Part shown: in pieces, positions 21,855 through 53,838 of the stretch
How the letters are laid out: each line of letters starts with the position of its first letter
How positions within the stretch are numbered: position 1 is the first letter of the stretch
Virus record (IMG/VR): IMGVR_UViG_3300046559_000436
Location: 33,261-97,260 of that record
Strand: one strand, 5' to 3'
From: a virus
DNA: 64,000 bases
The notes under the pieces: generated by a model
Seen by the model: only the letters and a program-made list of their open reading frames with translations
What the model was told of the DNA's origin: nothing
The model's database searches: none
Position numbers and translations under genes: made by a program

Positions 21855-22157
21855 ATGACCGACGTTACCAACGCCTACGGGCATAGGATCGGATCGCGCG
21901 GCATCACCACCCGCTCCTCTCTGCTGGATGCACTTCGGGGTCTGCTCAACCTGTACCCGGCCCACAACCTCCAGGTCAAGAACGTCACGGACATCGTCGG
22001 ATGTTCTCCGGCGGTCTTCTGGACCTACTTCGCCCACCTGGATGACGCGTACCGGGCCCTGGCCGACACCGTCGGGGACGGGGATGCCCAGACGCTCTGG
22101 GCGCGACAGGTCAAGCACATCGTCAAGGTGCTGGACGAGGTCGCCGAAACCAGCTGA
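21855..22157 (+). CDS. TetR-like helix-turn-helix protein
   Basis: 100 residues. RSSLLDALRGLLNLYPAHNL, QVKNVTDIVGCSPAVFWTYF and AHLDDAYRALADTV align with helices 1 to 4 of a TetR-family DNA-binding domain (including the FWTYF turn usually YxYF). The ligand-binding C-domain is nearly absent, so it may dimerise differently or act constitutively. It lies upstream of the DNA polymerase gene with a terminator between. Confidence 0.6.
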   Translation: MTDVTNAYGHRIGSRGITTRSSLLDALRGLLNLYPAHNLQVKNVTDIVGCSPAVFWTYFAHLDDAYRALADTVGDGDAQTLWARQVKHIVKVLDEVAETS

Positions 22158-22168
22158 CGCAAGTCAAC

Positions 22169-22193
22169 GGGGCCGACCCAATGGGTCGGCCCC
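22169..22193 (+). terminator. Hairpin terminator before polymerase gene
   Basis: GGGGCCGACCC and GGGTCGGCCCC are perfect inverse copies with a 3-base loop. No T-run, so termination may be partial. Confidence 0.65.
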
Positions 22194-22218
22194 ACCACTG
22201 TATCCGAAAGGGAGAAAC

Positions 22219-24396
22219 ATGACCGCCACCTTCCTCGGACGGACCCGAGTCGGAAGCACGTTCCTGCCCGAGCTGCCGCCGGACTGGCCGGTAGCGTTCG
22301 ACTATGAGACCGCTGGGCTGTACCCGGACGGAGACTCCGGTACCAAGACTCAGCCCGCATCCCCGGAGGGCAGGGCGTCGGCCCTGGCCATCGCGTGGTT
22401 CGACCCCGAGACCGGCGAGCTGGTCTCACACGCCTTCCCGTTCGACCAGGGCAAGATTGCCGGGAAGCCGGGTAGGGCGATCCGGGACCCCGAGACCGGT
22501 CGACAGAGCTTCTCTCCGATCCAGGCCACCCTGGACTTCGACAACCCCAACCTGGAACCGCAGTGGTACGTTGAGCTGATGGCCTGGCTCAGCCGTCGAC
22601 GGTATCTGGTGGCCCACAACGCCAAGTTCGACATGGCGGTCGCTCGGATCGGTCTGCGTGCGGACGCAGGGGGGTTCGGCGGAGAGGAGGGCCTCGGCGG
22701 GACCGAGCTGGATCAGGAAGGGACCTACATCTATGACACGATGCTGTCCCAGATGCTGTTGGCCCCTCTGGACATGCCGTCGCTGAAGCCTACGGCCAAG
22801 AAGCTGTGGGGTGACGACGAGACCGAGGAGCTGGAAGCCCTCAAGAAGGGGCTGAAGGCCAACGGCGTGGGGCTCGGTAAGCGATACGACCTGGTGGACT
22901 GGCCGATCCTGGCCAAGTACGCGGCCAAGGACGCCGAACTTACCATTCGCTTGCACCAGGTTCAGATGAACGCGGTCGACGACGAGATTGCGCCCCCGCT
23001 GTACGAGAGCCTGCTCGAAGACGACCTGCAGACCATGCGGGTACTGTACCGGATGGAGAAGCGCGGGCTGCCCTTCCTGAAGGAAGACGGTTTGGAGGTT
23101 GCCGAGGAGCTGCGTAAGCACGCCAAGATGGTGGCCAGCACGATGCCATTCGATCCCAGCAAGCTCGCTCAGGCCATCCGGTTCTTCTACGGGTGGAAGT
23201 GCAGCAACTCCGAAATCAGGTCCCAGAAGTTCCTGACCGGGGACGAGCGGGACTGGTCGAAATTCCTGTGCGACAAGAGTTGCGAGGAGTGCCAGGGGAA
23301 GAACGGGCTCGGACTGGAGCCGACCAGCCGGACCGAGAAGCGCGGCGACCCCCAGCTCAATCAGGCCGAGATCGACAAGCTGGCCAAGCAGGGTCAGCCC
23401 TGGATCAAGGAGTTCCAAGAGTACGTCAGCTGCATGTCGGCCATCGCCAAATGGTACGACGGCTGGTCCCTTCGAGTGGGCAAAGACGGTCGTCTTCGGC
23501 CGGTTTTCAAGCAAGGCAAGCAGGAGACCGACAAGTCGGGCGGAGCCAAGAGCAAGGAGGGCGGCACCAAGACGGGTCGGCTGGCGGTGGAGCGGGTGCA
23601 GATCCAGGCGGTTCCCCGTAAGACGCACCTGCCCATCCCGGCCCCCCACCCCAAGAAGCTGATCCGGCCGACCAGCGGCAAGGTCGTGTGGGAATCGGAC
23701 CTGCCCAACGGTGAGATGAGAATCGTCACTGTGATGTCCAACTGCAACGCGATGTGGGACATCATCGACAAGCTGGACCGAGAAAAGGACGCCAGCGGCA
23801 TTCACGGTCTGGTGTGCACCCAGATGTTCGGGTTGACACCTGAGGACGAGGATTTCCCCACCTTCAAGCAGGTGTCGAAGTGCATCGGTTTCGGGACGGT
23901 GTTCCAGTCCGGACCGCAGACCCTGGCTGACCAGGTCTACCAGCAGTGCGGCGTGAAGTTCAAGGTTCAGGAGATGAAGGACTTCATCGCGGACTTCCGG
24001 GGTAAGTTCCCGGAGATCCAGCAACTGTCCGACCTGGCGGTGAAGAAGGCCGATCAGTGGCGCGGGCTGGGTTACGTCACACTGATCAACGGTCGCAACC
24101 GTTGGTTCGAGCCACACGAGCGGGTGGCCACCTGCGCGATGTCGTCGGTTATTCAGGGTTCGCTCGCTGAGACCATGAAGACGTCCATGCGACAGGTGGA
24201 GGCTACTTACCCGGGCATCCTGATCAACCAGGTACACGACTCGGTATGGGTGGAGGTGGACGACAGCCCGGAAGGCGAGGCGCTGGCTTGGGACGTGGCG
24301 CGGATGGTTCAGAACACCTTCGAGGAGACGTTCGACGTACGCGAGCGACCCCGGATGAAGTTCCCGGTGACTCCGGAACGGCTTGACCTGAAGTGA
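22219..24396 (+). CDS. Family A DNA polymerase with 3'-5' exonuclease
   Basis: 725 residues from ATG 22219 (AAGGGAG upstream). Exonuclease motifs: AFDYETAGL (D28, E30), LVAHNAKFDMAV, and KYAAKDAELT. Polymerase motif C is INQVHDSVWVE. Motif A reads SDLPNGEMRIV instead of the usual DYSQIELR, and the motif B region VSKCIGFGTVFQSG lacks the usual NF/YG. Altered active-site motifs fit the polymerase class associated with 2-aminoadenine (DpoZ-type), but this needs alignment. It is the only replicative polymerase visible. Confidence 0.88.
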   Translation: MTATFLGRTRVGSTFLPELPPDWPVAFDYETAGLYPDGDSGTKTQPASPEGRASALAIAWFDPETGELVSHAFPFDQGKIAGKPGRAIRDPETGRQSFSPIQATLDFDNPNLEPQWYVELMAWLSRRRYLVAHNAKFDMAVARIGLRADAGGFGGEEGLGGTELDQEGTYIYDTMLSQMLLAPLDMPSLKPTAKKLWGDDETEELEALKKGLKANGVGLGKRYDLVDWPILAKYAAKDAELTIRLHQVQMNAVDDEIAPPLYESLLEDDLQTMRVLYRMEKRGLPFLKEDGLEVAEELRKHAKMVASTMPFDPSKLAQAIRFFYGWKCSNSEIRSQKFLTGDERDWSKFLCDKSCEECQGKNGLGLEPTSRTEKRGDPQLNQAEIDKLAKQGQPWIKEFQEYVSCMSAIAKWYDGWSLRVGKDGRLRPVFKQGKQETDKSGGAKSKEGGTKTGRLAVERVQIQAVPRKTHLPIPAPHPKKLIRPTSGKVVWESDLPNGEMRIVTVMSNCNAMWDIIDKLDREKDASGIHGLVCTQMFGLTPEDEDFPTFKQVSKCIGFGTVFQSGPQTLADQVYQQCGVKFKVQEMKDFIADFRGKFPEIQQLSDLAVKKADQWRGLGYVTLINGRNRWFEPHERVATCAMSSVIQGSLAETMKTSMRQVEATYPGILINQVHDSVWVEVDDSPEGEALAWDVARMVQNTFEETFDVRERPRMKFPVTPERLDLK

Positions 24397-26794: not shown

Positions 26795-26918
26795 GGAGCT
26801 GGTCGTGACGGTGTGCGACGCGTTCGGGATCACTCGGGACGAGTTTCTGAAAATCGTCAAAGAAGAGGCCGAAGATATGGGCCTCACGATTCTGGAAGAG
26901 GTGCTGGCGCAATGTTGA
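26772..26918 (+). CDS. 48-residue helical protein
   Basis: ATG 26772 with GGAGGTGAT upstream. IKELVVTVCDAFGITRDEF suggests an acidic helical protein ending in Cys. Its stop overlaps the start region of the GGDEF gene, so they are coupled. Confidence 0.5.
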   Translation: MADLAGIKELVVTVCDAFGITRDEFLKIVKEEAEDMGLTILEEVLAQC

Positions 26919-27484
26919 ACTCTGATGTGATGGCGTGGGGGTCCCTGGTCACCTGCGTCACAACGTACGTCGGGTACCAGGCAGGGTCGTTGAAGGCCCG
27001 GGTCGTGGCGGACCGGGAGTACCGGGACCCCGAGACCGGGATGCTGACTCGGAAGGGCTTCGAACATCGCGCCCTGAAGATGCTGGCCAAGAGCTGCAAC
27101 TACATCGTGGTGATGGTCGACCTCAACGACCTGAAAAAGGTCAACGACGAGTTCGGCCACGCGGCGGGCGACATGTTCATCCGCGAGCAGGCTGGTCGAA
27201 TCAGTGACTGGGCCCGTAGGAAGAACGGGGTGGCGGCCAGGCTCGGCGGGGACGAGTTCGTGGTGATCGTCACCGGCTCTGCCGACACCACGGCGCTCAA
27301 GGAAGATCTGAACCGACCGATCTGCTGGGAGGGCGAGACCAGGTACTGGACCGCCAGCGTCGGATTCTCCTGGATCTCGATCGGGGTGCTCAAGAGCGAC
27401 CGGAAGAACTGCCTGTCCAAGGCTCTCGGCAAGGCTGACCAGGACATGTACAAGAACAAGGGCGAGGGGCGCAGCCGCCGCTAG
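26912..27484 (+). CDS. GGDEF diguanylate cyclase
   Basis: 190 residues from ATG 26912. Residues 8 to 27 may be a membrane segment (AWGSLVTCVTTYVGYQAG). The GGDEF domain is complete: DPETGMLTRKGFEHR, VVMVDLNDLKKVNDEFGHAAGD and ARLGGDEFVVIV (GGDEF at 112 to 116), then SVGFSW. No RxxD inhibitory site five residues upstream of GGDEF. It should make c-di-GMP from two GTP. In Streptomyces c-di-GMP holds BldD in its repressing form, so a phage enzyme may keep the host vegetative. A longer upstream frame is a shadow of the coupled gene. Confidence 0.85.
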   Translation: MLNSDVMAWGSLVTCVTTYVGYQAGSLKARVVADREYRDPETGMLTRKGFEHRALKMLAKSCNYIVVMVDLNDLKKVNDEFGHAAGDMFIREQAGRISDWARRKNGVAARLGGDEFVVIVTGSADTTALKEDLNRPICWEGETRYWTASVGFSWISIGVLKSDRKNCLSKALGKADQDMYKNKGEGRSRR

Positions 27485-27860: not shown

Positions 27861-27876
27861 CGAAAGCCGGATGCGG

Positions 27877-27911
27877 GGGGTCGATCTCTCAAATGTGAGG
27901 GGTCGACCCCC
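27877..27911 (+). terminator. Hairpin upstream of purZ-like gene
   Basis: GGGGGTCGA and TCGACCCCC pair around a 17-base loop. No T-run; may be a partial terminator or a mRNA-stability element before the purZ-like gene. Confidence 0.5.
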
Positions 27912-27951
27912 TGGGTCTTACTTTCCGAACAGACCTAAGAGGAGACAGAAG

Positions 27952-29148
27952 ATGACCGGGAAGTTGATCGTCGTAGCGGACGGGTTCTACGGAAGCTGCG
28001 GCAAGGGCCACGTCACCGAGATGCTGTTGAACTCGGACGACAGCCTGGTTCAGGCGAACGTTCGAGTGGGCGGCCCGAACGCAGGGCACATCGTGTACGG
28101 GCCGCAGTGCCCGAGCTGGTGCGGGATCGGCGACGAGGGCCCGAGCGATGTCCCGTGGGGGGCGGAGCCCGAGGAGGACCACCTCGTGGTGGGCGGAATC
28201 CGTCTGCACCCCTGGAAGCTGCGTCAGGTGCCGGTCGGGGCGGTAGTGAACCACTACTGCAAGTTGGTGATCGCGGCCGGGTCGGAGATCCACCTGCCGA
28301 CGCTGCACGAGGAGATCAAGGCGCTGGAGGACGCTGGCCACCGCGTCATCAACCGGCTCTACATCGACTCGGCGGCTACGGTTCTGACTGAGCGTCACAA
28401 GGAGCAGGAGAAGCACCGCGACCTGACCGGCAAGCTCGGTTCGACGGCCAAGGGGATCGGCGCCGCTCGGGCGGACCGGATCTGGCGGACGGCGGAGACC
28501 TGGGGCGAGCACGTCAAGGACCACAACGATTCCCAGTGGACGACGGACAACACGGCGGACTACCTGTACCAGCTGATGAGCCGGGCCGGTGGCACGGTGA
28601 TCATCGAGGGCACCCAGGGGTTCGGGCTGGGTCTGCACACCGAGAACTACCCGCAGGTGACCAGCACGGATTGCCGGGCGGTGGACTTCCTGGCACAGGC
28701 CGGACTGTCGCCCTGGCACAAGGCGGTCGAGAAGTTCGAACCGTGGGTGGTGCTGCGGACCAGGCCGATCCGGGTGGCCGGGAACAGCGGCCCGATGAAG
28801 GGTGAGACCACCTGGGAGGAGATCGGGCTTCGGCCCGAGAAGACCACGGTCACGCGGAAGGTGCGCAGGGTCGGCGAGTTCGACGCCGGGCTGGCGAACC
28901 GGGCGATCGACGCCAACGGCGGTCACAACGTGGCCAGGGTGGCGCTCACGATGGTGGATCACGTGATCCCGGAGCTGGCGGGGGCGGACTTCATCGAGGA
29001 CCTGACGCCCGAGGTGGTGACGAGGCTGAAGGGGTTCATCGAGGACATCGAGATCAAGCTCAGCGGCCAGGTGATCAGCTGGGTGGGGACGGGGCCGGAC
29101 ACCGGACTGTGGCTGGTGGACGAAAAGGGCGACCGACTGCCCTGGTGA
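27952..29148 (+). CDS. purZ: PurZ-like aminoadenylosuccinate synthetase
   Basis: 398 residues, close to PurA/PurZ length, ATG after AGGAGACAG. The N-terminal loop DGFYGSCGKGHVTEML aligns with the PurA loop GDEGKG but has Ser15 where PurA has its catalytic Asp, the change reported for PurZ enzymes. VGGPNAGHIVY provides the conserved His. IIEGTQGFGLGL and TSTDC match later substrate-binding loops. PurZ joins Asp to (d)GMP to make the precursor of 2-aminoadenine (Z). The next gene is MazG/MazZ-like, the usual partner. PurA-like activity on IMP cannot be excluded from sequence. Confidence 0.8.
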   Translation: MTGKLIVVADGFYGSCGKGHVTEMLLNSDDSLVQANVRVGGPNAGHIVYGPQCPSWCGIGDEGPSDVPWGAEPEEDHLVVGGIRLHPWKLRQVPVGAVVNHYCKLVIAAGSEIHLPTLHEEIKALEDAGHRVINRLYIDSAATVLTERHKEQEKHRDLTGKLGSTAKGIGAARADRIWRTAETWGEHVKDHNDSQWTTDNTADYLYQLMSRAGGTVIIEGTQGFGLGLHTENYPQVTSTDCRAVDFLAQAGLSPWHKAVEKFEPWVVLRTRPIRVAGNSGPMKGETTWEEIGLRPEKTTVTRKVRRVGEFDAGLANRAIDANGGHNVARVALTMVDHVIPELAGADFIEDLTPEVVTRLKGFIEDIEIKLSGQVISWVGTGPDTGLWLVDEKGDRLPW

Positions 29149-32702: not shown

Positions 32703-33587
32703 ATGGGCACGAAGCTCGTGTACATGGCCATGCCGCTCGATTTCACGACGGAGAGCGGCGACCGTCCGTTCGTGGACTTCGTCGAGAACGACCTGAAGGC
32801 CAGCAAGCACGTGGTGTACCGGCCGGACCAGAGCTTCACGTTCCAGAAGGGCACGGAGCCCAGCGAGGTGGTGCAGGCCGTCAACAACGCGGCCATCAAC
32901 GGGGCCAGCGGCATGGTGGCGTTCCTCCCGAAGGGGACGCAGACGATCGGGGTGCCGATGGAGATCCAGTCGGCGATCTCGGCTGGGAAGCCGGTCGTCG
33001 TGGTGACGGACCACTCGGACAGCTGGGTCGTGGCGGGCTGGACCAAGACGAACGGCGTGAAGGTGGTGGAATTCAACGCGAGCCAGATCCGAGGAGGGGT
33101 CGGCTGGTTGAACGAGACCATGAGCCACCGCGATGGGTGGACGTTCAAGCAACCCGTAGAGAACCCGGTCGTGTTCGAGGCCATGTCGGAGGACGCGGAA
33201 CTGCCGATCAGGGCATACGCGACGGACGCCGGGTTCGACCTGTACGTGTCGCGGAACACGTTCATCCCGGCCGGTGGGTTCGCGGACGTGCCGTGCGGGG
33301 TGGCCATGCAGATCAACGCCGGGGAGTGGGCGCTGATCACCGGACGCAGCAGCTCGATCAGGAAGAAGAAGCTCCACGTGATCAACGGCGTGATCGACGC
33401 CGGATACAGCGGAGAGCTGTTCGCGGGAGTGCAGAACCTGAGTTCGCACACGGTCACGATCACGAAGGGCGAGCGGGTGGCCCAGGTGATCCTGATGGGG
33501 GCGGCGGCCAACGGGAGGGCAGTAAGGTTCGGCAAGGTGGCACAGGCACCGCGTGGGAACAACGGCTTCGGAAGCAGCGGACGATGA
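32703..33587 (+). CDS. dut: Deoxyribosyltransferase-like/dUTPase fusion
   Basis: 294 residues. The N-terminal half (LVYMAMPLDF, KHVVYRPDQSF, AAINGASGMVAFLP, GVPMEIQSAISAGKPVVVV) resembles nucleoside 2-deoxyribosyltransferase-like folds. From about residue 165 all five dUTPase motifs appear: YATDAGFDLYV, GRSSSIRKK, GVIDAGYSGELFAG, KGERVAQVIL and RGNNGFGSSG. It should hydrolyse dUTP, and the N-terminal domain may sense or remodel nucleotides. AGGAGG upstream. The fusion is unusual; NDT activity is uncertain. Confidence 0.85.
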   Translation: MGTKLVYMAMPLDFTTESGDRPFVDFVENDLKASKHVVYRPDQSFTFQKGTEPSEVVQAVNNAAINGASGMVAFLPKGTQTIGVPMEIQSAISAGKPVVVVTDHSDSWVVAGWTKTNGVKVVEFNASQIRGGVGWLNETMSHRDGWTFKQPVENPVVFEAMSEDAELPIRAYATDAGFDLYVSRNTFIPAGGFADVPCGVAMQINAGEWALITGRSSSIRKKKLHVINGVIDAGYSGELFAGVQNLSSHTVTITKGERVAQVILMGAAANGRAVRFGKVAQAPRGNNGFGSSGR

Positions 33588-36747: not shown

Positions 36748-36775
36748 CGGCAACGCGACCAAAGGAGTGGGCATA

Positions 36776-38071
36776 ATGATCGAGCGATACAGCACGGACC
36801 GAATGCGCGTGATCTGGTCGGACGCTGGGACCATGTCACTGTGGTCGACGGTGGAGCGGGCCATGGCCGAGGCGCAGGGCGCACCGGAGCACGTGGTGAA
36901 GGAGCTGTGGGAGAAGCGGCTGCCGATGGCTGAAGCCGGAGTGGTGGAGTGGCGCTGTCGCGAAGCGACAACCCGCCATGACGTGGTGGCGTTCGTGGAG
37001 CTGATGAGAGAATCGGTCAGCCTGGAAGCGGCCAGGTGGGTGCACAGGGGGGTGACCAGCTCGGACCTGGTGGACTCGGCACAGGCGATTCGGGTCAAGG
37101 AGTCGCTGGGGATGATCGCGAAGGCTGGCCAGGGACTGACGAACGAGCTGGGGGCGCTGGCCCAGCGATGGTCGAGCCAGCCGTGGATCGGGCGGACGCA
37201 CGGCCAGTGGGCGCAGGAGACGACGTTGGGTCACCTGTGGTCGAACCGGGCCATGGCGGTCAACAAGGCCGTTCTCAAGGTCAGGGCCGCCATGGGCGAG
37301 CAGATGGTGATGATGTCGGGGCCGGTGGGGGACTACAAGACGCTGGGAGGTGAGAAGGAAGGGAAGGCAGCCGAACAGGCGTTCGGGCGACTGGTGAAGA
37401 TGCCAGTGGCCGCGAAGTCGACGCAGGTCGTTGACAGGGGCGGGCTGGCGGAGGCCATGTGGGCGTGCGAGAGGCTGATGGCCGCGATAGCACAGGTGGC
37501 GACGGACGTGCGGCTGATGGGGCAGAGCGAGGTGGGGGAGGTCGCCGAAGCATTCGCCGCGAAGCAGCGGGGGTCGTCGATCATGGCCCACAAGAACAAC
37601 ACGGTCGGGGCGGAGAACCTGATCGGGCTGGAGCGGGTGGTAAGGGCCAACGTGATGCCGGTGGTGGAGGGCGTGGCGACGTGGGGGATGCGGGACATCA
37701 CACACTCGGCGGTGGAAAGGGTGTGCGTGCCGCTGGTGCTGGGGACGACTGAATACGGGGCGCTGAGGTGCGCCAAGCTGATGGCGGGACTGGTCGTCCG
37801 ACCTGAAAGGGCGATGGACAACATCGACAAGACGGGCGGGGTGCTGGAGGCGGGGGGGCTGGTCACGTGGCTGACGGAGAACGGGGCGGGACCGAAGGAA
37901 GCGTGGGAGGTGGTCCACGAGGCAAGTAAGGAGGTGGAGGTGGGCGACCTGTGGGTGGGGTCCAGCCCGATGGACCTCAAGCAGATGACGCAGCGGATGG
38001 TCAACAAGAAGGTCAAGAACAACGAGGCCGGTTGGTCGGAGTTTAAGGGAAACTGGGCGGAGAAGCAATAG
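36776..38071 (+). CDS. purB: Adenylosuccinate lyase (PurB)-like
   Basis: 431 residues, the usual PurB length, ATG 36776 after AAAGGAG. Conserved regions: TRHDVVAFV (His68), HRGVTSSDLVDSAQ, IGRTHGQWAQ (His142) and the superfamily signature loop GSSIMAHKNN (266 to 275; usually GSSxMPxKxN, so Pro is Ala here). PurB removes fumarate from succino-AMP/GMP compounds. With the PurZ-like synthetase it could complete dZMP formation without the host enzyme. Known Z-phages are generally described as using host PurB, so this is a notable addition. Confidence 0.9.
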   Translation: MIERYSTDRMRVIWSDAGTMSLWSTVERAMAEAQGAPEHVVKELWEKRLPMAEAGVVEWRCREATTRHDVVAFVELMRESVSLEAARWVHRGVTSSDLVDSAQAIRVKESLGMIAKAGQGLTNELGALAQRWSSQPWIGRTHGQWAQETTLGHLWSNRAMAVNKAVLKVRAAMGEQMVMMSGPVGDYKTLGGEKEGKAAEQAFGRLVKMPVAAKSTQVVDRGGLAEAMWACERLMAAIAQVATDVRLMGQSEVGEVAEAFAAKQRGSSIMAHKNNTVGAENLIGLERVVRANVMPVVEGVATWGMRDITHSAVERVCVPLVLGTTEYGALRCAKLMAGLVVRPERAMDNIDKTGGVLEAGGLVTWLTENGAGPKEAWEVVHEASKEVEVGDLWVGSSPMDLKQMTQRMVNKKVKNNEAGWSEFKGNWAEKQ

Positions 38072-45472: not shown

Positions 45473-46081
45473 ATGACCATGACGCCAGAGCAACGAGCCC
45501 ACATTCGTGAGGTCGGCCGGGCCGCCTCTGAAGCCTGGCAGCGCGACCACCCCAACGACCGGGCGGGCTCCAACAGGGCCCGTCAGCGGGCGGTCAGCTC
45601 ACTGCGCTACCAGTACGACCCCCGCCGCAAGAACCGCTCCATCACCAAGTCCACCGTCTACCTTCCCTGCTCCTGCGGCCGGGTCGGGGGTCTCTGGCTC
45701 GGCGGCGACGGTCTTCAGCCTGGTCAGGTCGTTTGGCGAGACTGCCCCAACGTCACCCGTTTCGATTGGTCCACCGGCCACATCAACTGGGTTCGTAGGG
45801 CTGCTGCCAAAGAGTTCCTGATGGGTCGTCATCTCTATCTCAGGCCACGCCCCGCCACTCCGGACGACTGGTCCTCTGTTACTCCCAGTGACCCCGAACC
45901 GCTAGACCCCTGCTTCGTTCTCGAACAGCTTGGGGTAGCCAGCGACTCCGACTCCTTTGCCTTGCTGGTGCTCTCCGCCGCCCGTGGTCTGAATACCGAC
46001 GCCACCCGGCTCCCCGTCCAGCGCGCTGACATGGCGGTTGTTGAATGGGCCAAGCAGCAGCTGGCTAACCCCTCGGCTTGA
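45473..46081 (+). CDS. Cassette protein of unknown function
   Basis: 202 residues. Basic N-terminal helix (HIREVGRAASEAWQRDH), CSCG motif with GLWLGGDG, and a long helical C-terminus. TTTAAT lies 6 bases before the ATG with no classical -35, so a leaderless start is possible. Last rightward cassette gene before the leftward block. Confidence 0.5.
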   Translation: MTMTPEQRAHIREVGRAASEAWQRDHPNDRAGSNRARQRAVSSLRYQYDPRRKNRSITKSTVYLPCSCGRVGGLWLGGDGLQPGQVVWRDCPNVTRFDWSTGHINWVRRAAAKEFLMGRHLYLRPRPATPDDWSSVTPSDPEPLDPCFVLEQLGVASDSDSFALLVLSAARGLNTDATRLPVQRADMAVVEWAKQQLANPSA

Positions 46082-46101: not shown

Positions 46102-46132
46102 CGACCCCCCGGCCTACCCGGCTGGGGGGTCG
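46102..46132. terminator. Bidirectional terminator at convergence
   Basis: CGACCCCCCGGCC faces GGCTGGGGGGTCG (one mismatch) with TTTG after, between the rightward cassette genes and the leftward ftsK-like gene. Confidence 0.7.
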
Positions 46133-46210: not shown

Positions 46211-48076
46211 CTAGACGAGCCGCCACAGCTCGCTTTCCTGGTCGTACTCCACCTTTCCTTCCTGCTTGAGCTTCCAAAGAGCATTCTTGATGGTGCTGCT
46301 GTTGACCGTCTCACCCAGCGACCCCTTGAGCCCGCCCTTGGTCGCAGGCCCCATCGCCAGCTCCAGCATGATCGCTTCCGCTGCCTGGGACCGAGTCAGC
46401 CGGGACACCTCCTCGGCCACCTCCTGCATCTTCTCGAACGAGATCCGGTCACTCTTAGTAACCGTCGCTCTGGCTCCGCCGCGCCACTCGGCGATTCTCT
46501 CGATCTCCCTCGGCAGGTCGTTCTCCGCGTCCACGTAGATCCCGCGCATAGCCGCCGGGTGCGTTCCCTCCAGCGTCTGCAACAGGAATTCGCCGTGCTT
46601 GCCGAGCTTGTTGGGCTTCATCAGCTCAAGGTCGTCGAACACCATCCCGGCATGGTTCTTCTGCATCCGGAATCCGATCCTGTTGTTGAGCTGGCCTCTC
46701 GCCGACGTGGTCCCGCCGAACGCCGACTTGTCCGGTGTCTGGGTGGCCAGGATCAGGAAGATGCCGACCGCTCTCGCTCTCCGCAGCAGGTCGAACAGCA
46801 TCGCGACGTTGGTCATCTCTCCCTTCGTCTTCTTGTTGACCTTGTCCCACTCGCTCAGCTGGGTGAACTCATCGACGATTGCCCACACCACCGGCCTGCC
46901 ATCGACCGTCGGGTCCCACTTGTCGGCCTTCCTGGCCTTGAGGATCTCAGCCCGCTCCTCGACCTCCTTGAGAAGCCATTCGAGCACCCCCCGTGCTCCG
47001 GGCTCGTCGCTGGCCGTGCCGTCGAGGATCGGTTCGAGCAGGTTGGCCTCGATGCCCTCCTTGAGGTCGATGAACAGGACCTGGCTGCACTCTCTCTGCG
47101 TCAGTGACAACGTCAGCAGCCGGAGCATCGTCGACTTTCCGCCACCTGTCGTACCGGCGATCAGCGTGTGAACCAGCGGGTCGAGAAGGATCGGGTCTTC
47201 GTACTCGTCCAGGCCGATCAGGATGGGCGCGTTCCAGGCCACCGGCCCCTGAGGCTCGTACGGTACCAGGGACGGCAGAGAACCAGGCGCCCGGTACTCT
47301 ACGGCCACCACCCCCTCTACGCCCGCCGGAGATACCACGGGAGCCCTCCGGAGCCTACCCGCGCGCCCGATCACCCCCGCAGCCTTCTGCACCTCCTCCA
47401 AGCCGAGTTCCAGCGGCAGCTCGACCTCTGCCCGCCAGCCCTCGCCGAGACCCTTCTCATTGGCCGGGATAACCTCGAACTCAGCGATCTCGACCAGCTT
47501 CTTGTACTTGTTCCAGAGCGCTCGCTGAATGGCGCCCGGCAGTCCGCGCTCGAATTCGGGATCGGTCTCTACCTTGGGCGCGACCTTCTCATACTGCTGC
47601 TTCAACTTCAGCAACGCCATCTCCTCCCGCAGCTCCAGCAGTCGCTGAGAGCCACCGGCGTTGTTGATCTGGGTCATCCGGTGATTGCGGTCGAGCCATC
47701 GCTCCATCCAGTGCTCGTACCAGGCGAACGACCAGGCCACGTTCATCGCGCCAGCTCCCAGCGCCGCCCACAGACTCTGGGAGCCACCGCCCGACCAACC
47801 GGCCACCCCGGCTTCCGCCAGGAAGGTGGCCGCCCATCCCGCGCTTGTCCCGAGACCTTCGGCGAATCCGTGGCCGTCCGCCCTCTGGAACAGGAGTTTG
47901 AACGCACCGACTCCGGCCGCACCTCCTGCCACGATCTCGATCAGCTGGGCGTCTTGACCGTAGAGGTTGTGCGTCACCAACCCGCCCAGGGCTCCGGCCC
48001 CCGCCACCAGGCCGGAAGTCGCCACTCTCTTCCGCCAGTCCCCTGTGTTCGGGTTCTGGTTCCAGTTCATACTCAT
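46211..48076 (-). CDS. FtsK/TraB-like DNA translocase
   Basis: 621 residues. N-terminal hydrophobic segments (residues about 20 to 60 and 75 to 120) suggest membrane attachment. The motor domain has Walker A GTTGGGKST (308 to 316), VLFIDLKEGIE, the Walker B region VVWAIVDEFTQLS, and ILATQTPDKSAFGG. The C-terminus ends in a winged-helix-like region (SLGETVNSSTIKNALWKLKQ). This is the layout of Streptomyces plasmid transfer proteins TraB/TraSA, hexameric translocases of double-stranded DNA. It is downstream of a DUF2637-like gene in one operon. Confidence 0.8.
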   Translation of the reverse strand: MSMNWNQNPNTGDWRKRVATSGLVAGAGALGGLVTHNLYGQDAQLIEIVAGGAAGVGAFKLLFQRADGHGFAEGLGTSAGWAATFLAEAGVAGWSGGGSQSLWAALGAGAMNVAWSFAWYEHWMERWLDRNHRMTQINNAGGSQRLLELREEMALLKLKQQYEKVAPKVETDPEFERGLPGAIQRALWNKYKKLVEIAEFEVIPANEKGLGEGWRAEVELPLELGLEEVQKAAGVIGRAGRLRRAPVVSPAGVEGVVAVEYRAPGSLPSLVPYEPQGPVAWNAPILIGLDEYEDPILLDPLVHTLIAGTTGGGKSTMLRLLTLSLTQRECSQVLFIDLKEGIEANLLEPILDGTASDEPGARGVLEWLLKEVEERAEILKARKADKWDPTVDGRPVVWAIVDEFTQLSEWDKVNKKTKGEMTNVAMLFDLLRRARAVGIFLILATQTPDKSAFGGTTSARGQLNNRIGFRMQKNHAGMVFDDLELMKPNKLGKHGEFLLQTLEGTHPAAMRGIYVDAENDLPREIERIAEWRGGARATVTKSDRISFEKMQEVAEEVSRLTRSQAAEAIMLELAMGPATKGGLKGSLGETVNSSTIKNALWKLKQEGKVEYDQESELWRLV

Positions 48077-48118
48077 GGTTCAGGTCCTTTCTGGGAGTTT
48101 TGGTTCAACCGATAGCAG

Positions 48119-48151
48119 GGGGTTCAGGTTCCGAACCGGAACCTGAACCCC
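48119..48151. repeat. 14-bp inverted repeat, 5-base loop
   Basis: GGGGTTCAGGTTCC and GGAACCTGAACCCC are perfect inverse copies. It lies between the DUF2637-like gene (upstream on the minus strand) and the ftsK-like gene. The core equals that of the repeat at 7311-7365. Confidence 0.75.
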
Positions 48152-48167
48152 GAGCTGGCTGCTGAAC

Positions 48168-49181
48168 CTACCGGTAGTGGCCGGTTCCGGGAGCGTTGTC
48201 GAGCCAGAACTGGTGGGCGTCCTTGCGCAGAGTGGAGGCCGTGGCCTTGGCGGTGGGCTTCAGGTCGTAGATCTCGATCACCTCGCTGAGCGGAACCGAG
48301 TTCAGCTGGCCACCGCGCTCCCCGATCGTCCGGGCCAGGTGCGCCACCTTGTCTCTGCGTTCTGTCGGAACCCCCTCTGACCGGGAAGGTTCCGGTTCGG
48401 CGGGGGGTGCGGGGGGTTCCGGTTCAGCCAGCGGAACGGGGAGCTGAACCTTGGCGAGTTCCAGTTCCGGCTTGTTCGGAACCACGGGCTTCGGGCGGTT
48501 CACCCAGTCCGGAATGTCCAGTTCGGGTTCCGGTTCACGCGTGAGCTGAACCGTAGGAGTCTGGTTCAGGTTCAGGAGCTGGGCCAGCTGCAGCAGGCCG
48601 GGGTTCGGAATCGGAAGTTCCACCGTGGCGGCGGAACCCGGTTCTCCGTCCTCCCACCGGAACTCGTCGTGAGCCAGTTCCGCCCGCTTCTGACGTTCGA
48701 GTTCCGCCACTCGACGACGGTAGTCCTGGCGCTTCAGGCGGTTCCGGTCGTTCTCGTTGAGCTTGGGTCGCAGGGTGTGCAGGAACGACTGGGTCAGACC
48801 CTTGGAAGCCACCGTGAACAGCACACCCAGAACGGCGGTCGCCCAGCTGTGGACCTGGTCGCCATGCATCGCCGAGACGGTGGCGGAGGAGACCAGGGTG
48901 CCCCACGACCACAGCTCGGTCCGCCAGTCCCCGCCGTAGGCGTCGGAGATGGTCATGGCGAGTGAGGCGATCCAGGCCATGTCGAGCACGGAGCAGGCCA
49001 GGAAGGCAGCCCAGTGGGCGGACCCGCTGGCCATCAGCGAATAGAGCGAGTAGGTGGACCAACCGGCCGCGCCCAGGACGGACACGGACGCCAGGACGAA
49101 GAACACGACCTTGACGACGGTCTGCCCCTGCCTGGCGGGGTTGTGGGGTCGTCTGATAGAATTTGTGTCGTTGGGAACCAT
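48168..49181 (-). CDS. DUF2637-like membrane protein (Spd-like)
   Basis: 337 residues. The first 130 residues hold about four membrane helices (VVFFVLASVSVLGAAGW; AAFLACSVLDMAWIASLAM; WAVTAV-like helix AVLGVLFTVASKGL), the pattern of DUF2637 proteins found with Streptomyces plasmid spread genes. Then a basic coiled coil (RNRLKRQDYRRRVAELERQ), a Pro/Glu-rich disordered region with repeated EPEP and a C-terminal helix-turn-helix-like end. GGTTCC/GGAACC codons are over-used here. It probably works with the FtsK/TraB-like protein. Confidence 0.65.
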   Translation of the reverse strand: MVPNDTNSIRRPHNPARQGQTVVKVVFFVLASVSVLGAAGWSTYSLYSLMASGSAHWAAFLACSVLDMAWIASLAMTISDAYGGDWRTELWSWGTLVSSATVSAMHGDQVHSWATAVLGVLFTVASKGLTQSFLHTLRPKLNENDRNRLKRQDYRRRVAELERQKRAELAHDEFRWEDGEPGSAATVELPIPNPGLLQLAQLLNLNQTPTVQLTREPEPELDIPDWVNRPKPVVPNKPELELAKVQLPVPLAEPEPPAPPAEPEPSRSEGVPTERRDKVAHLARTIGERGGQLNSVPLSEVIEIYDLKPTAKATASTLRKDAHQFWLDNAPGTGHYR

Positions 49182-49251
49182 TCCCCGGTCTCCTTTCAGG
49201 TTAGCCCTCGGCGCGCGGCTCGAACACTGAGCGTCGGGGGCTGATCTATGT

Positions 49252-49455
49252 TTAGCGGTTCTCGTAGGCCAGGATCATCTCGTCAACGTCGGCCCCGGCC
49301 TTGACCATGCGCAGGGCTAGGAGGCCACCCGGCACCTGCTTGCCGCTCTCCACCCTGGAGATGGTGGTGACGGTGGTGCCGAACCGGGTGCTGGCCTTGG
49401 TCTGGGAATCCTCCCCGCGCAGTCGTCGCATGATCTCACTGACAGTGGCTGTCAT
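49252..49455 (-). CDS. XRE-like regulator of transfer-like operon
   Basis: 67 residues from ATG 49455 (AGGAG upstream on this strand). MRRLRGEDSQTKASTRFGTT then VTTISRVESGKQVPGGLLAL is a Cro/XRE helix-turn-helix. First gene of the operon that includes the Spd-like and FtsK-like genes, comparable in position to KorSA/TraR-type regulators of Streptomyces plasmids. Confidence 0.75.
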   Translation of the reverse strand: MTATVSEIMRRLRGEDSQTKASTRFGTTVTTISRVESGKQVPGGLLALRMVKAGADVDEMILAYENR

Positions 49456-49486
49456 TGCATAACTCCTCTCGTTCTTGTCTATACAC

Positions 49487-49516
49487 ATTCTATCATATGA
49501 ATTGCCACAAACACAA
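49487..49516 (-). promoter_or_regulatory. Promoter of 49455 operon (minus)
   Basis: On the minus strand TTGTGT, 18 bases ending ATGA, then TAGAAT. Leads into the regulator gene. Confidence 0.8.
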
Positions 49517-49517
49517 G

Positions 49518-49548
49518 CGGGCCCCATCCTTGACAAGGATGGGGCCCG
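49518..49548. terminator. Bidirectional terminator
   Basis: CGGGCCCCATCCTT and AAGGATGGGGCCCG are perfect inverse copies with a 3-base loop, between the two leftward operons. Confidence 0.85.
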
Positions 49549-49558
49549 ATCGTTCGGT

Positions 49559-49744
49559 TCAGTGGTAGCAACGTCTCCGGCAGGTGTGCTCGGGGCTGGC
49601 CTTCCAGTCGACGTGAGCCGACTCGCATTCTTCGCAGATGATATCGTAGCCGCCCTTGGTCGGAACCTTTTTGGTCTCGACGTCGGGGTGGGTCCGACAG
49701 AACCGCCGACCACCGCGCTCGACAGCGGAGACCTTGACCGCCAT
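49559..49744 (-). CDS. Cys-rich zinc-finger-like protein
   Basis: 61 residues; ATG overlaps the upstream stop (TGATG). RRFCRTHPDVET, IICEECESAHVDW and HTCRRRCYH give several Cys/His pairs, consistent with one or two zinc sites. No family recognised. Confidence 0.55.
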   Translation of the reverse strand: MAVKVSAVERGGRRFCRTHPDVETKKVPTKGGYDIICEECESAHVDWKASPEHTCRRRCYH

Positions 49745-50550
49745 CAGCTGCGGGACCTGGAGCCAGAGACGGTCCGCATGGACACCGAGCGGTCGGAGAG
49801 GTGGCCGGTGCCGCCGAGCCTGATAGAGCCGGAGACGGTGTCGGCGGTGATGCTGCCGGTGGACTTCTCGGCGTTGATCACCTTGACGGAGCCGGAGACG
49901 GTGTTGACACGGAGCGCGGAACCCTCCCAGTGGCGGATCTTGACCGAACCGGAGACGCTGTGGACGCGAGCTTCCGAGGTGGCCTTGTTGACGCACACCG
50001 AACCACTGGTGGTGGAGACCTCGACGCGTTCGACGACCTCGATGTCGGTGGCTCCGCTGGTGGTTTTGACATCGACCTTGCGGAACCGGCCCTCGGCCAG
50101 CAGCGACGCGCTGACAGTGTCGGTTGTCAGACTGCGGTCGTTGGGCATGCGGATGATGACCTGGACCGGACTGGGCCCCTGGTGAGCCTGAACCTGCTGG
50201 GCCCGGTTGTTGTAGATCTCCTTGCCGTCGGAGTAGATCTTGCCGTTGACGATCGAGATGTTGTTGAGTCCGGAGATAACGTTCCCGTTGAAGGAACCGC
50301 CGAACACGACCATGTTGCTGCTGATGGTGAGGCCCTCGACCTTCACCCGGACTTCGAGCACATCATCGGCATACTCTCGGAACTTGGCGCCGATGACCGC
50401 GTCAGCACTCGGGCCCTCGTTGTCGGCCGTCCGGATGACGACCTCGACCGCGTCGACCTCATCGGTCGCCTCGACGGTGATCTCACCGGCCGTCAGACGG
50501 ATGTCGATATCCTGGGCGGTCTTGCAGCTGTAGATGCTCTGGGTGGCCAT
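49744..50550 (-). CDS. DUF4097-like beta-helical protein
   Basis: 268 residues. C-terminal half repeats the pattern TTSGSVCVN, SVSGSVKIRHW, TVSGSVKVINA, TVSGSIRLGG at about 20-residue steps, typical of DUF4097 (putative adhesin) right-handed beta-helices. N-terminal part is beta-rich (DIDIRLTAGEITVEATD). No signal peptide, so it is probably intracellular in this phage. Role unknown. Confidence 0.6.
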   Translation of the reverse strand: MATQSIYSCKTAQDIDIRLTAGEITVEATDEVDAVEVVIRTADNEGPSADAVIGAKFREYADDVLEVRVKVEGLTISSNMVVFGGSFNGNVISGLNNISIVNGKIYSDGKEIYNNRAQQVQAHQGPSPVQVIIRMPNDRSLTTDTVSASLLAEGRFRKVDVKTTSGATDIEVVERVEVSTTSGSVCVNKATSEARVHSVSGSVKIRHWEGSALRVNTVSGSVKVINAEKSTGSITADTVSGSIRLGGTGHLSDRSVSMRTVSGSRSRS

Positions 50551-51381: not shown

Positions 51382-52314
51382 TCAGAACTCACCAGGGGCT
51401 ACCTGGTTGCACTGGAGGCCGAGGAGACGCCAGAGAGTCACGACCTGATTGCGGTCGTCAAAGACCTGCTCGACCCGGTAGTGGTCTCGGACGTGGTCGT
51501 TGAACAGCGACAGCTTGACCAGGTCGTCGGAGCGGTTGTCGCCGACCTTTCTCATGATCAGGCGGTCGACGGTCAGAAGCTGGCTCTCCAGCCACTGGAG
51601 GGTCTCCCGTCGGCAGGACTCTGAGCGGCCGGAGAGGACCAGGAGTCGGCGACCGGTGGAGCGCAGCATACGGGCCAGGTCGACGATGGGGACACGGGGA
51701 AGGTCCTGGCCGACCTTGTGCCACTCGTAGGGGGAGCGGTTGTGGGGTCCGAGCGTGAGGGTTCCATCCATGTCGACGATGAACGCCTTGGGCAGGGAAC
51801 GGTTGGGGATGTAGGACTCGATGTGGGGGAGGATGTTGAAGGAGTTGAGCCAGTCCGAGGTCAGGCGGAAGGGCAGGCCACCCAGCTTGGCCGTCCTGAC
51901 GATCTTGGCCTGACGGTTGATGACGTCGGGACCGACTCGGACGCCGTCGGGACGCAGGGCGTCACGTTCAAGGCAGACCTCACGGGGAACATGAGTGAAG
52001 TCCTTGACGTGGAAGGAGACGTTCTGGTGACGGAAGGCCTTGGCGATCTGGGAGGGCATGGAGGACGAAAGATGGGTGTTGTCGAAGATGACACCACGGC
52101 CCTCCTTGACAAGGGATCGGGCCATGGCGAGCATGGTGGAGAAGGCCAGGCCCTCGAACTCCTTGGTCCACAGGAGGGAGCCGGAAGGCGTACCGAGAGT
52201 GGCGCGGACGTCATCCATGGAGAGACGGATGAGGCCCTCGGAGAGGGCGAACTCACGAGCCCAGGTGGATTTGCCGGAGGCGGACAGGCCGTAGGTCAGG
52301 TGAAGGTTGATCAC
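51382..52314 (-). CDS. Polynucleotide kinase-phosphatase (Pnkp-like)
   Basis: 310 residues, close to T4 Pnkp. N-terminal kinase: P-loop GLSASGKST (9 to 17), SMDDVRATL, GVIFDNTH. C-terminal HAD phosphatase: VDMDGTLTLGP (181 to 190) and VLSGRSE, DNRSDD. It phosphorylates 5'-OH and removes 3' or 2',3'-cyclic phosphate ends, preparing cut RNA for ligation. It is two genes downstream of the Rnl1-type ligase, forming an RNA repair pair like that of T4 that counters anticodon nucleases. Confidence 0.88.
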   Translation of the reverse strand: MINLHLTYGLSASGKSTWAREFALSEGLIRLSMDDVRATLGTPSGSLLWTKEFEGLAFSTMLAMARSLVKEGRGVIFDNTHLSSSMPSQIAKAFRHQNVSFHVKDFTHVPREVCLERDALRPDGVRVGPDVINRQAKIVRTAKLGGLPFRLTSDWLNSFNILPHIESYIPNRSLPKAFIVDMDGTLTLGPHNRSPYEWHKVGQDLPRVPIVDLARMLRSTGRRLLVLSGRSESCRRETLQWLESQLLTVDRLIMRKVGDNRSDDLVKLSLFNDHVRDHYRVEQVFDDRNQVVTLWRLLGLQCNQVAPGEF

Positions 52315-52684: not shown

Positions 52685-52700
52685 ATTTACACAGAAGCAA
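52671..52700 (-). promoter_or_regulatory. Promoter of 52620 gene (minus)
   Basis: Minus strand TTGCTT (in the end of the ligase gene), 18-base spacer, TATAAT. Confidence 0.75.
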
Positions 52701-53838
52701 TCTCGGACTGACCGGGTCGGCGACCTCCGAAGCTGGGTTCGAGCTGGCGCCAGGCCCAGTTGGAGAGCTTGACGTGGTTGGCGTCGAGAACAAGGAAGAT
52801 CGCCTTGAGAAGGCGGGGCTCGACGACCTTCTTGGCCATCAGGGCGAAGTCCTTGCGAGTGAAGACGATGTCGTGCTCGCGAAGAGAGGAGAGGGTGAGC
52901 TGATGGGCGTCGTGAACTGACGCGAGCAGATCGGAGTGGGCGTGGTTGAGTTCGGACTCGATCTGGCGGCACCAGGCGTACAGCTCGTCGGGAACATCCT
53001 TGGCGGACATAAGGTCCCGAAGATCCCCACCGGCAGCGAGAATGGTGTGAATGGTCTTCTCGTTAGTCTCGGTGAACAGACCGTGGATACGCTTGTAGTC
53101 GGCGAACTTGATCTTGGCGCGCTGTCCGTTCTCCTTGAAACGGACTACGTAGCCCTCCTGGACAGTACCCTTGACGTTGTTGTCGTTGGCCTCGCGAGTC
53201 AGAGCGGCAAGGGTCTCGAAACCGCTGAGAGGTCGGACGCTGGGACCGGGCCAGACCTGGCGGAGGTGGTGGATATCGATCTCGTTGCCAGTGTCGAGGC
53301 TGTAACCGCCGAGAAGGACGCAATCCTCAAGGCCATCGTAGTCGACGACGATCCGGTTGGCGGGGTAGATGATCTCGGCCAGGTAGGTGACGCGCGGGTC
53401 GAGGAACTGGCCGTAGCCGGACTGGATGTGATCGTCGAGCCAGGACTGGGCCCACTGGGCCTGATCGCTGGCGAAGGAGCCTCGGGTGGCTGTGAGCCAG
53501 TGGCCGTCGAAGTTGAAGAAGATGCCGAGGGAGCCATCCATCTTGTCGAAGACATCGAAGGGGCCGTTGGGCAGCTCGCCGAAAACGCTCTGGGGGCCGT
53601 GCTGATCAAAATTGTGAAACTTCTCGAATGGGAGAGCCACGACCTCCATGTCGTACTGGCTGTAGACCAGGCCACGGCATCGAAGCGTTACCTGGTTCCA
53701 GTGGTTGTCGAACTGGGCCTTCTCGGTGTAGTTGAGGAGAACCAGTTCGGGATGGTCGGGGTGGTGGCCCGCCCGAAGGTAGCCGTCGTTGATATCGGAT
53801 TCGGCCGTTTCCAGGCTGAACAGGTCGGTGATCTTCAC
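52687..53838 (-). CDS. RNA ligase, T4 Rnl1-type
   Basis: 383 residues, GTG start overlapping the upstream stop. FDKMDGSLG places the nucleotidyl lysine at residue 99 (KxDGS), with the preceding CRGLVY and following TRGSF (ligase motifs), and late KFADYK (motif V region). T4 Rnl1 is 374 residues with Lys99. It should seal 5'-phosphate to 3'-OH RNA ends, such as cleaved anticodon loops, after Pnkp treatment. DNA ligases are excluded by motif spacing. Confidence 0.88.
   Translation of the reverse strand: MKITDLFSLETAESDINDGYLRAGHHPDHPELVLLNYTEKAQFDNHWNQVTLRCRGLVYSQYDMEVVALPFEKFHNFDQHGPQSVFGELPNGPFDVFDKMDGSLGIFFNFDGHWLTATRGSFASDQAQWAQSWLDDHIQSGYGQFLDPRVTYLAEIIYPANRIVVDYDGLEDCVLLGGYSLDTGNEIDIHHLRQVWPGPSVRPLSGFETLAALTREANDNNVKGTVQEGYVVRFKENGQRAKIKFADYKRIHGLFTETNEKTIHTILAAGGDLRDLMSAKDVPDELYAWCRQIESELNHAHSDLLASVHDAHQLTLSSLREHDIVFTRKDFALMAKKVVEPRLLKAIFLVLDANHVKLSNWAWRQLEPSFGGRRPGQSEIASV

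Follow-up and report, generated by a model that had tools for sequence, protein, structure and literature searches.

A plasmid-transfer-like gene module in a Hiyaavirus-like tailed phage, with a possible role in moving phage DNA between hyphal compartments

The TraB protein of Streptomyces plasmids alone transfers double-stranded plasmid DNA, using 8-bp repeats (PMC4170104). The membrane protein SpdB2 is reported to form oligomers, to bind DNA and to interact with TraB, and the spread of plasmids through the mycelium is driven by spd genes (PMC4170104). Here we describe a module of three minus-strand genes that encode a helix-turn-helix (HTH) protein, a multi-helix membrane protein and an FtsK/TraB-type DNA translocase. 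The module lies in a 64,000-nucleotide stretch of viral DNA, called the window below, that comprises bases 33261–97260 of the 97,260-base virus record IMGVR_UViG_3300046559_000436. Given the literature on TraB, SpdB2 and spd, the best-supported reading is that the module is a Tra/Spd-like double-stranded DNA (dsDNA) machine that would pump phage genomes through septa into neighbouring hyphal compartments, a reading to which we assign a probability of about 0.4.

A translocase of the Tra lineage

The translocase has N-terminal hydrophobic helices, an FtsK motor at residues ~226–491 and a winged-helix-like C-terminal region at residues ~544–620. It matches the FtsK_SpoIIIE family, PF01580, with 55.4 bits (E 7.3e-15; Pfam gathering cut-off 24) and the FtsK/SpoIIIE-like phrog_1358 with E 7e-34. 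The Walker A motif GTTGGGKS is at residue 308, followed by D402/E403 and by ATQTP at 444. The preliminary description of this DNA, made from the letters and their open reading frames (ORFs), had called the protein an FtsK/TraB-like translocase, and the family score and Walker motifs bear this out. Residues 544–620 align in register with Tra-type motors, a weak match (E 0.009; profile P 0.0055). Both Walker motifs, A and B, are kept, and apparently the Tra-type C-terminal domain too, which suggests that the motor is active. A structure model from the single sequence was too poor to use (predicted local distance difference test, pLDDT, 37), and a search of viral contigs with the window translocase alone gave no match.

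Trees of the motor domain were inferred by maximum likelihood with motors of chromosomal FtsK, EccC, TraB, actinomycete integrative and conjugative elements (AICEs), plasmids and phages. The window motor is on the Tra side in every tree. It groups with the motors of small Streptomyces plasmids (support 97/90), and it falls in a clade of these with the motors of Satis, Xkcd426, YDN12 and a second viral contig that has support of 96/88, or 92/86 with Hiyaa, whose copy is very divergent. The enclosing clade of Tra-type motors is supported at 99/97, and at 99/98 with Hiyaa added. By sequence, the translocase belongs to the Tra-type (plasmid, AICE and actinophage) lineage, apart from chromosomal FtsK. 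The preliminary description had named this phylogeny as a check, with a grouping among chromosome-segregation or packaging ATPases, together with a lack of transfer activity, as the result that would speak against it; the motor groups with the Tra-type motors instead. A forced join of the window motor with chromosomal FtsK and the motors of Bacillus and WXIN phages was rejected by the approximately unbiased (AU) test (p-AU 0.009 and 0.011).

FtsK-type motors are generic dsDNA pumps, and the hydrophobic N-terminal helices of the translocase could occupy an entry site. The protein might thus handle the phage genome within the cell, in DNA entry, concatemer resolution or as an aid to packaging. 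We consider this improbable, since a dedicated membrane-HTH partner and a plasmid lineage would not be expected of such a protein, and related phages carry their own terminase, as in the viral contig G201, whose ORFs read as terminase-, portal- and capsid-like genes.

The membrane partner and its recurrence beside motors

The membrane protein has four predicted transmembrane (TM) helices, a helical stretch at residues ~143–174, a Pro/Glu-rich linker and a three-helix, HTH-like C-terminus. In this predicted architecture it is SpdB2/DUF2637-like, perhaps through remote kinship, although its sequence does not allow us to file it as DUF2637; in likening it to both, the SpdB2 of plasmid pSVH1 is grouped with DUF2637 by assumption. 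Homologues (L006, L012, L013 and L014) are carried by the Protofrankia plasmid pFSYMDG01, a contig of Frankia and two viral contigs, one of them 115 kb long. On the plasmid, the Frankia contig and the 115-kb contig, where identity is 29–30% (E ~1e-13), the homologue gene is 5′ of a gene for an FtsK/HerA-type ATPase. The content of the module is, as had been claimed for it, like that of Streptomyces plasmid transfer genes: the motor groups with Tra-type motors, and the homologues of its partner stand beside ATPases on plasmid-like elements of actinobacteria. On the 115-kb viral contig (L012, 5902-10991), the homologue is followed by an NlpC/P60 + SLT peptidoglycan hydrolase and then by the FtsK-like ATPase; such an arrangement is more suggestive of conjugation than of a phage.

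AlphaFold modelled the membrane protein with low confidence (pLDDT 54.5). The top Foldseek match of this model is gp25 of phiC31 (prob 0.99, E 2.5e-3), a multi-TM protein with an EPEP-rich linker and an HTH-like end, but given the low confidence of the model this match carries no weight alone. The gp25 protein (L190, 36291-37007) scores 36.9 bits with our own DUF2637 profile and matches no such Pfam family.

In 20 DUF2637-carrying actinomycete genomes, at least 25 DUF2637 matches, spread over 16 genomes, lie less than 1 kb from a PF01580 match on the same strand, as counted by eye among the matches listed. With ~10–20 PF01580 matches per genome of 5–11 Mb, our rough estimate of the chance expectation is less than one pair overall. 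The order is FtsK then DUF2637 in 25/25 of these listed pairs; chromosomal pairs are labelled AICE by resemblance. All three of the TraB loci inspected (L089, L090 and L092) have DUF2637 then TraB, as in the window. The gene order that had been likened to that of Streptomyces transfer genes is thus the order at the TraB loci, but not that of AICEs and small plasmids.

The pairing is also found in phages. With the G201 translocase as query, tblastn retrieved 111 Streptomyces phage records, most of them labelled “FtsK-like DNA translocase”. G201 itself has a DUF2637 gene, above the Pfam cut-off, that overlaps its FtsK gene by 4 nt. In Woodruffvirus YDN12 and Xkcd426, a protein of 336–346 residues that has four TM helices and ends in a MerR-like HTH is encoded directly 5′ of the translocase. 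In Hiyaa, the 423-residue membrane protein gp98 is encoded several genes upstream of gp102, an annotated translocase with a Tra-type C-terminal domain that was missed by tblastn. The membrane partners in phages share their architecture, and no sequence homology is detectable among them. Since the pairing recurs in other Streptomyces phages, it is a real theme rather than a one-off.

A DUF2637 hidden Markov model run over 80 viral loci matched only L098. The DUF2637 proteins of Dubu and phiSASD1 (L183, 4968-5729; L184, 4968-5738) are named “excisionase” in their RefSeq copies, as is phrog_733, the family matched by the proteins of phiSASD1 and L098. The name is doubtful, since these are membrane proteins with DUF2637.

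Operon layout, phage and probable host

The three ORFs lie exactly at the coordinates given in Table 1, and codon usage scores both large ones as coding. The genes appear to form one separate transcription unit, in line with the single operon of the preliminary description: the strong hairpin upstream cuts the module off from the minus-strand genes above it, and the convergent plus-strand genes that face the module end at 46081. The first gene product had been called an XRE regulator. It is HTH_3/XRE-like (E 1.5e-4), with a score of 22.2 bits that is marginally below the Pfam cut-off of 23. A consensus promoter scan did not list the promoter-like sequence upstream of this gene.

Table 1. Features of the module and its flanks, in window coordinates.
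Feature	Coordinates	Strand	Evidence
Hairpin between the convergent plus-strand genes and the stop codon of the translocase; T-rich only on the + side	46102..46132	.	sequence
FtsK/TraB-type DNA translocase, 621 aa	46211..48076	-	PF01580, phrog_1358, motor trees
Inverted repeat separating the two large genes, perfect, with arms of 15 bp and a loop of 3 nt, GGGGTTCAGGTTCCG-AAC-CGGAACCTGAACCCC	48119..48151	.	
Membrane protein, 337 aa, C-terminal helical domain	48168..49181	-	hydropathy, helix prediction, homologues, phrog_29416
HTH regulator, 67 aa, XRE/HTH_3-like; opens the operon, start codon ATG at 49455	49252..49455	-	HTH_3 profile, ORF
A+T-rich leader 5′ of the HTH gene: promoter-like TTGTGT-18-TAGAAT, ribosome-binding GAGGAG	49456..49517	-	read by eye
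Terminator-like hairpin, strong, 14-bp stem	49518-49548	-	

The intergenic palindrome has no T-tract and is therefore not an ordinary terminator. We suggest it as a candidate clt-like or DNA-loading site, or an operator. Around it there are 9 GGTTC/GAACC words per 100 bases, against a genome mean of 0.4, and nowhere in the 97 kb scanned are these words packed more closely than at 48077-48168; the motif was picked after the cluster had been seen. The codons of the EPEP linker contain part of the GGTTC word as well and may be where it comes from.

Just upstream of the module is a gene for a DUF4097 toastrack protein (49744-50550, -; 45.9 bits, cut-off 22.9), followed by an ORF for a Cys/His-rich protein of 61 residues (49559-49744) with no Pfam match. 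The same upstream minus-strand block contains, close together, a tRNA-repair-type pair, a polynucleotide kinase/phosphatase (51382-52314, -) and a T4 Rnl1-like RNA ligase (52687-53838, -).

The first 36 kb of the record have matches to tailed-phage genes (tape measure, minor tail and head-maturation protease), and the window genes include an amidase endolysin, a DNA polymerase, a helicase and nucleotide genes. The polymerase is nearest to those of the Streptomyces phages Keanu, Spocter, Hiyaa and Galactica (~37% identity, 87% coverage), and the order of the PurA-like, dUTPase and PurB-like genes is the same as in Hiyaa; no close relative turned up when the phage collection was searched at the DNA level. 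Judged by its genes, this 97-kb phage is distantly related to the Streptomyces phages of Hiyaavirus. From the polymerase kinship and the Hiyaa-like gene order, we infer that the host is probably a filamentous soil bacterium, Streptomyces or a relative.

The window also has matches to PurZ (27871-29148, +; 320.5 bits, above the curated cut-off of 300), to a DpoZ-like polymerase (21928-24396, +; 242 bits, cut-off 350) and to a PurB-like lyase (36767-38071, +). The phage genome probably carries 2-aminoadenine (Z), like Hiyaavirus relatives that have PurA-like and PurB-like genes. The dUTPase (32703-33587, +) has an N-terminal domain that is nucleoside deoxyribosyltransferase-like.

A GGDEF diguanylate cyclase is encoded at 26813-27484 (+), with RLGGDEF intact (PF00990, 87 bits, cut-off 23.8). 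In Streptomyces, cyclic di-GMP works via BldD and maintains vegetative growth, so the phage protein could be a development switch that keeps the host vegetative. This bears on a reading in which the module serves host takeover within the infected compartment, the pump acting on host DNA or on the division or sporulation septum and steering development; variants are that it clears, traps or mis-segregates the host chromosome, or blocks host FtsK. The PHROGs class of these proteins is “moron / host takeover”, and phage ftsK, parB and ssgA genes have been suggested to manipulate development (PMC10117723). The motor, however, is of the Tra and not the chromosomal FtsK lineage, and its partner is of plasmid type, so that we think host takeover rather unlikely.

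Four 130-kb Streptomyces records filed as plasmids (L007, L008, L078 and L079) have Gilgamesh-type capsid genes (65–68% identity) and a Tra-type motor, 45–48% identical to that of Gilgamesh in the two compared. To judge by these genes, they look like phage-plasmids. The occurrence of a related Tra-type motor in such circular elements would fit a phage genome that persists without lysis and passes between mating hyphae in a conjugation-like way. Yet no integrase, resolvase or ParA family was matched in the 97-kb record, which may be incomplete, and this weakens the case for a plasmid-like lifestyle; lysis and structural genes are present as well. Transfer of this kind seems improbable to us, and the same observations give no support to the earlier suggestion that DNA would be moved without lysis.

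Proposed function and comparison with known systems

For a Tra/Spd-like machine, the following course may be proposed. The HTH protein would control the operon. The membrane protein would sit in the membrane, probably at hyphal cross-walls, with its C-terminal domain binding or organising DNA, like the SpdB2 of pSVH1. A hexamer of the translocase would load via its C-terminal winged helix on phage DNA, with the intergenic palindrome as a candidate site, and would pump phage genomes across the septum into adjoining compartments of the same hypha. Such movement of DNA between compartments is plausible, and through it a single adsorption event could spread through the mycelium.

Several points weigh against this proposal. 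The translocase scores 35 bits (E 5.7e-9) with the TraB model NF041214, below the cut-off of 800 that the motors of the small plasmids and of Gilgamesh also miss, and its exact sister is uncertain because of long branches. The membrane protein had been described as DUF2637-like; it is indeed multi-helix, and its homologue L013 reaches 21.0 bits with PF10935 (DUF2637), just under the cut-off of 22.8 bits, but the window protein itself has no match to this family at E<=1, and the profile-profile link is weak (P 0.0011, range 0.001–0.003; probability 20%). The preliminary description had also called for a search for 8-bp repeats like the TraB recognition sequence (TRS); no TRS-like tandem array (GACCCGGA) was found. 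The host assignment comes solely from the relatives of the phage. Finally, the motors of EGole and Satis have no large adjacent membrane partner, and phiC31, phiSASD1, Dubu and OnionKnight have a DUF2637 or DUF2637-like protein and no FtsK match. Since each occurs alone in some phages, the motor and the membrane protein can work apart.

The solitary DUF2637-like proteins of phiC31-type phages would agree with a role in interference, in which Spd/Tra-like proteins poison or hijack the transfer complexes of resident plasmids or AICEs. Tra and Spd proteins oligomerise (PMC4170104), and a divergent copy could mix into plasmid complexes. The window translocase, with its Walker motifs and putative Tra-type C-terminal domain, appears to be an active motor, and this role is very unlikely.

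That many Streptomyces phages, the present one included, spread their genomes through cross-walls via a Tra/Spd machine, without particle release, is a doubtful generalisation but one with consequences. If true, it would be a cell-to-cell movement of phage genomes in a bacterium, with a logic comparable to that of plant-virus movement proteins. If the module moves phage DNA across septa, phages of filamentous bacteria would be able to spread by a second route in addition to lysis, plaque growth in mycelium would have to be modelled anew, and the “FtsK-like translocase” label on ~100 Streptomyces phage records would gain a function. A transfer-type motor common to plasmids and phages also bears on the evolution of phage-plasmids. 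Since the pairing recurs in phages already cultured, the question is testable now.

Among known systems, the Bacillus phages Troll, Goe3 and SIOphi (Bastillevirinae; L075, L076 and L077) also have a membrane-protein gene directly 5′ of their FtsK/SpoIIIE-like translocase gene. Their motor, however, groups with chromosomal FtsK, and the partner, of 304–364 residues with ~6–7 hydrophobic helices, is of another type. The translocases of Streptomyces phages (YDN12/Xkcd426, Satis, the Samistivirus EGole, Gilgamesh and Hiyaa gp102) share the broad Tra-type clade with the window motor, which is at most ~32% identical to them, and the partners are not detectably homologous. The AICE pairs have both kinds of protein less than 1 kb apart on one strand, but with the gene order reversed, in a separate motor clade (100/100), and in a chromosomal, AICE-like setting rather than a phage. 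The TraB/SpdB2 genes of Streptomyces plasmids of the pSVH1 and pIJ101 type differ in that the window motor and partner miss the TraB and DUF2637 cut-offs, in that the window has no TRS array and no adjacent Kor/GntR-type regulator was seen there, and in that the genome is that of a tailed phage. They resemble the module in their FtsK-type motor and multi-TM partner, probably in the C-terminal winged helix, which is putative in the window motor, and in having DUF2637 upstream of TraB at the three loci inspected, the order seen in the window.

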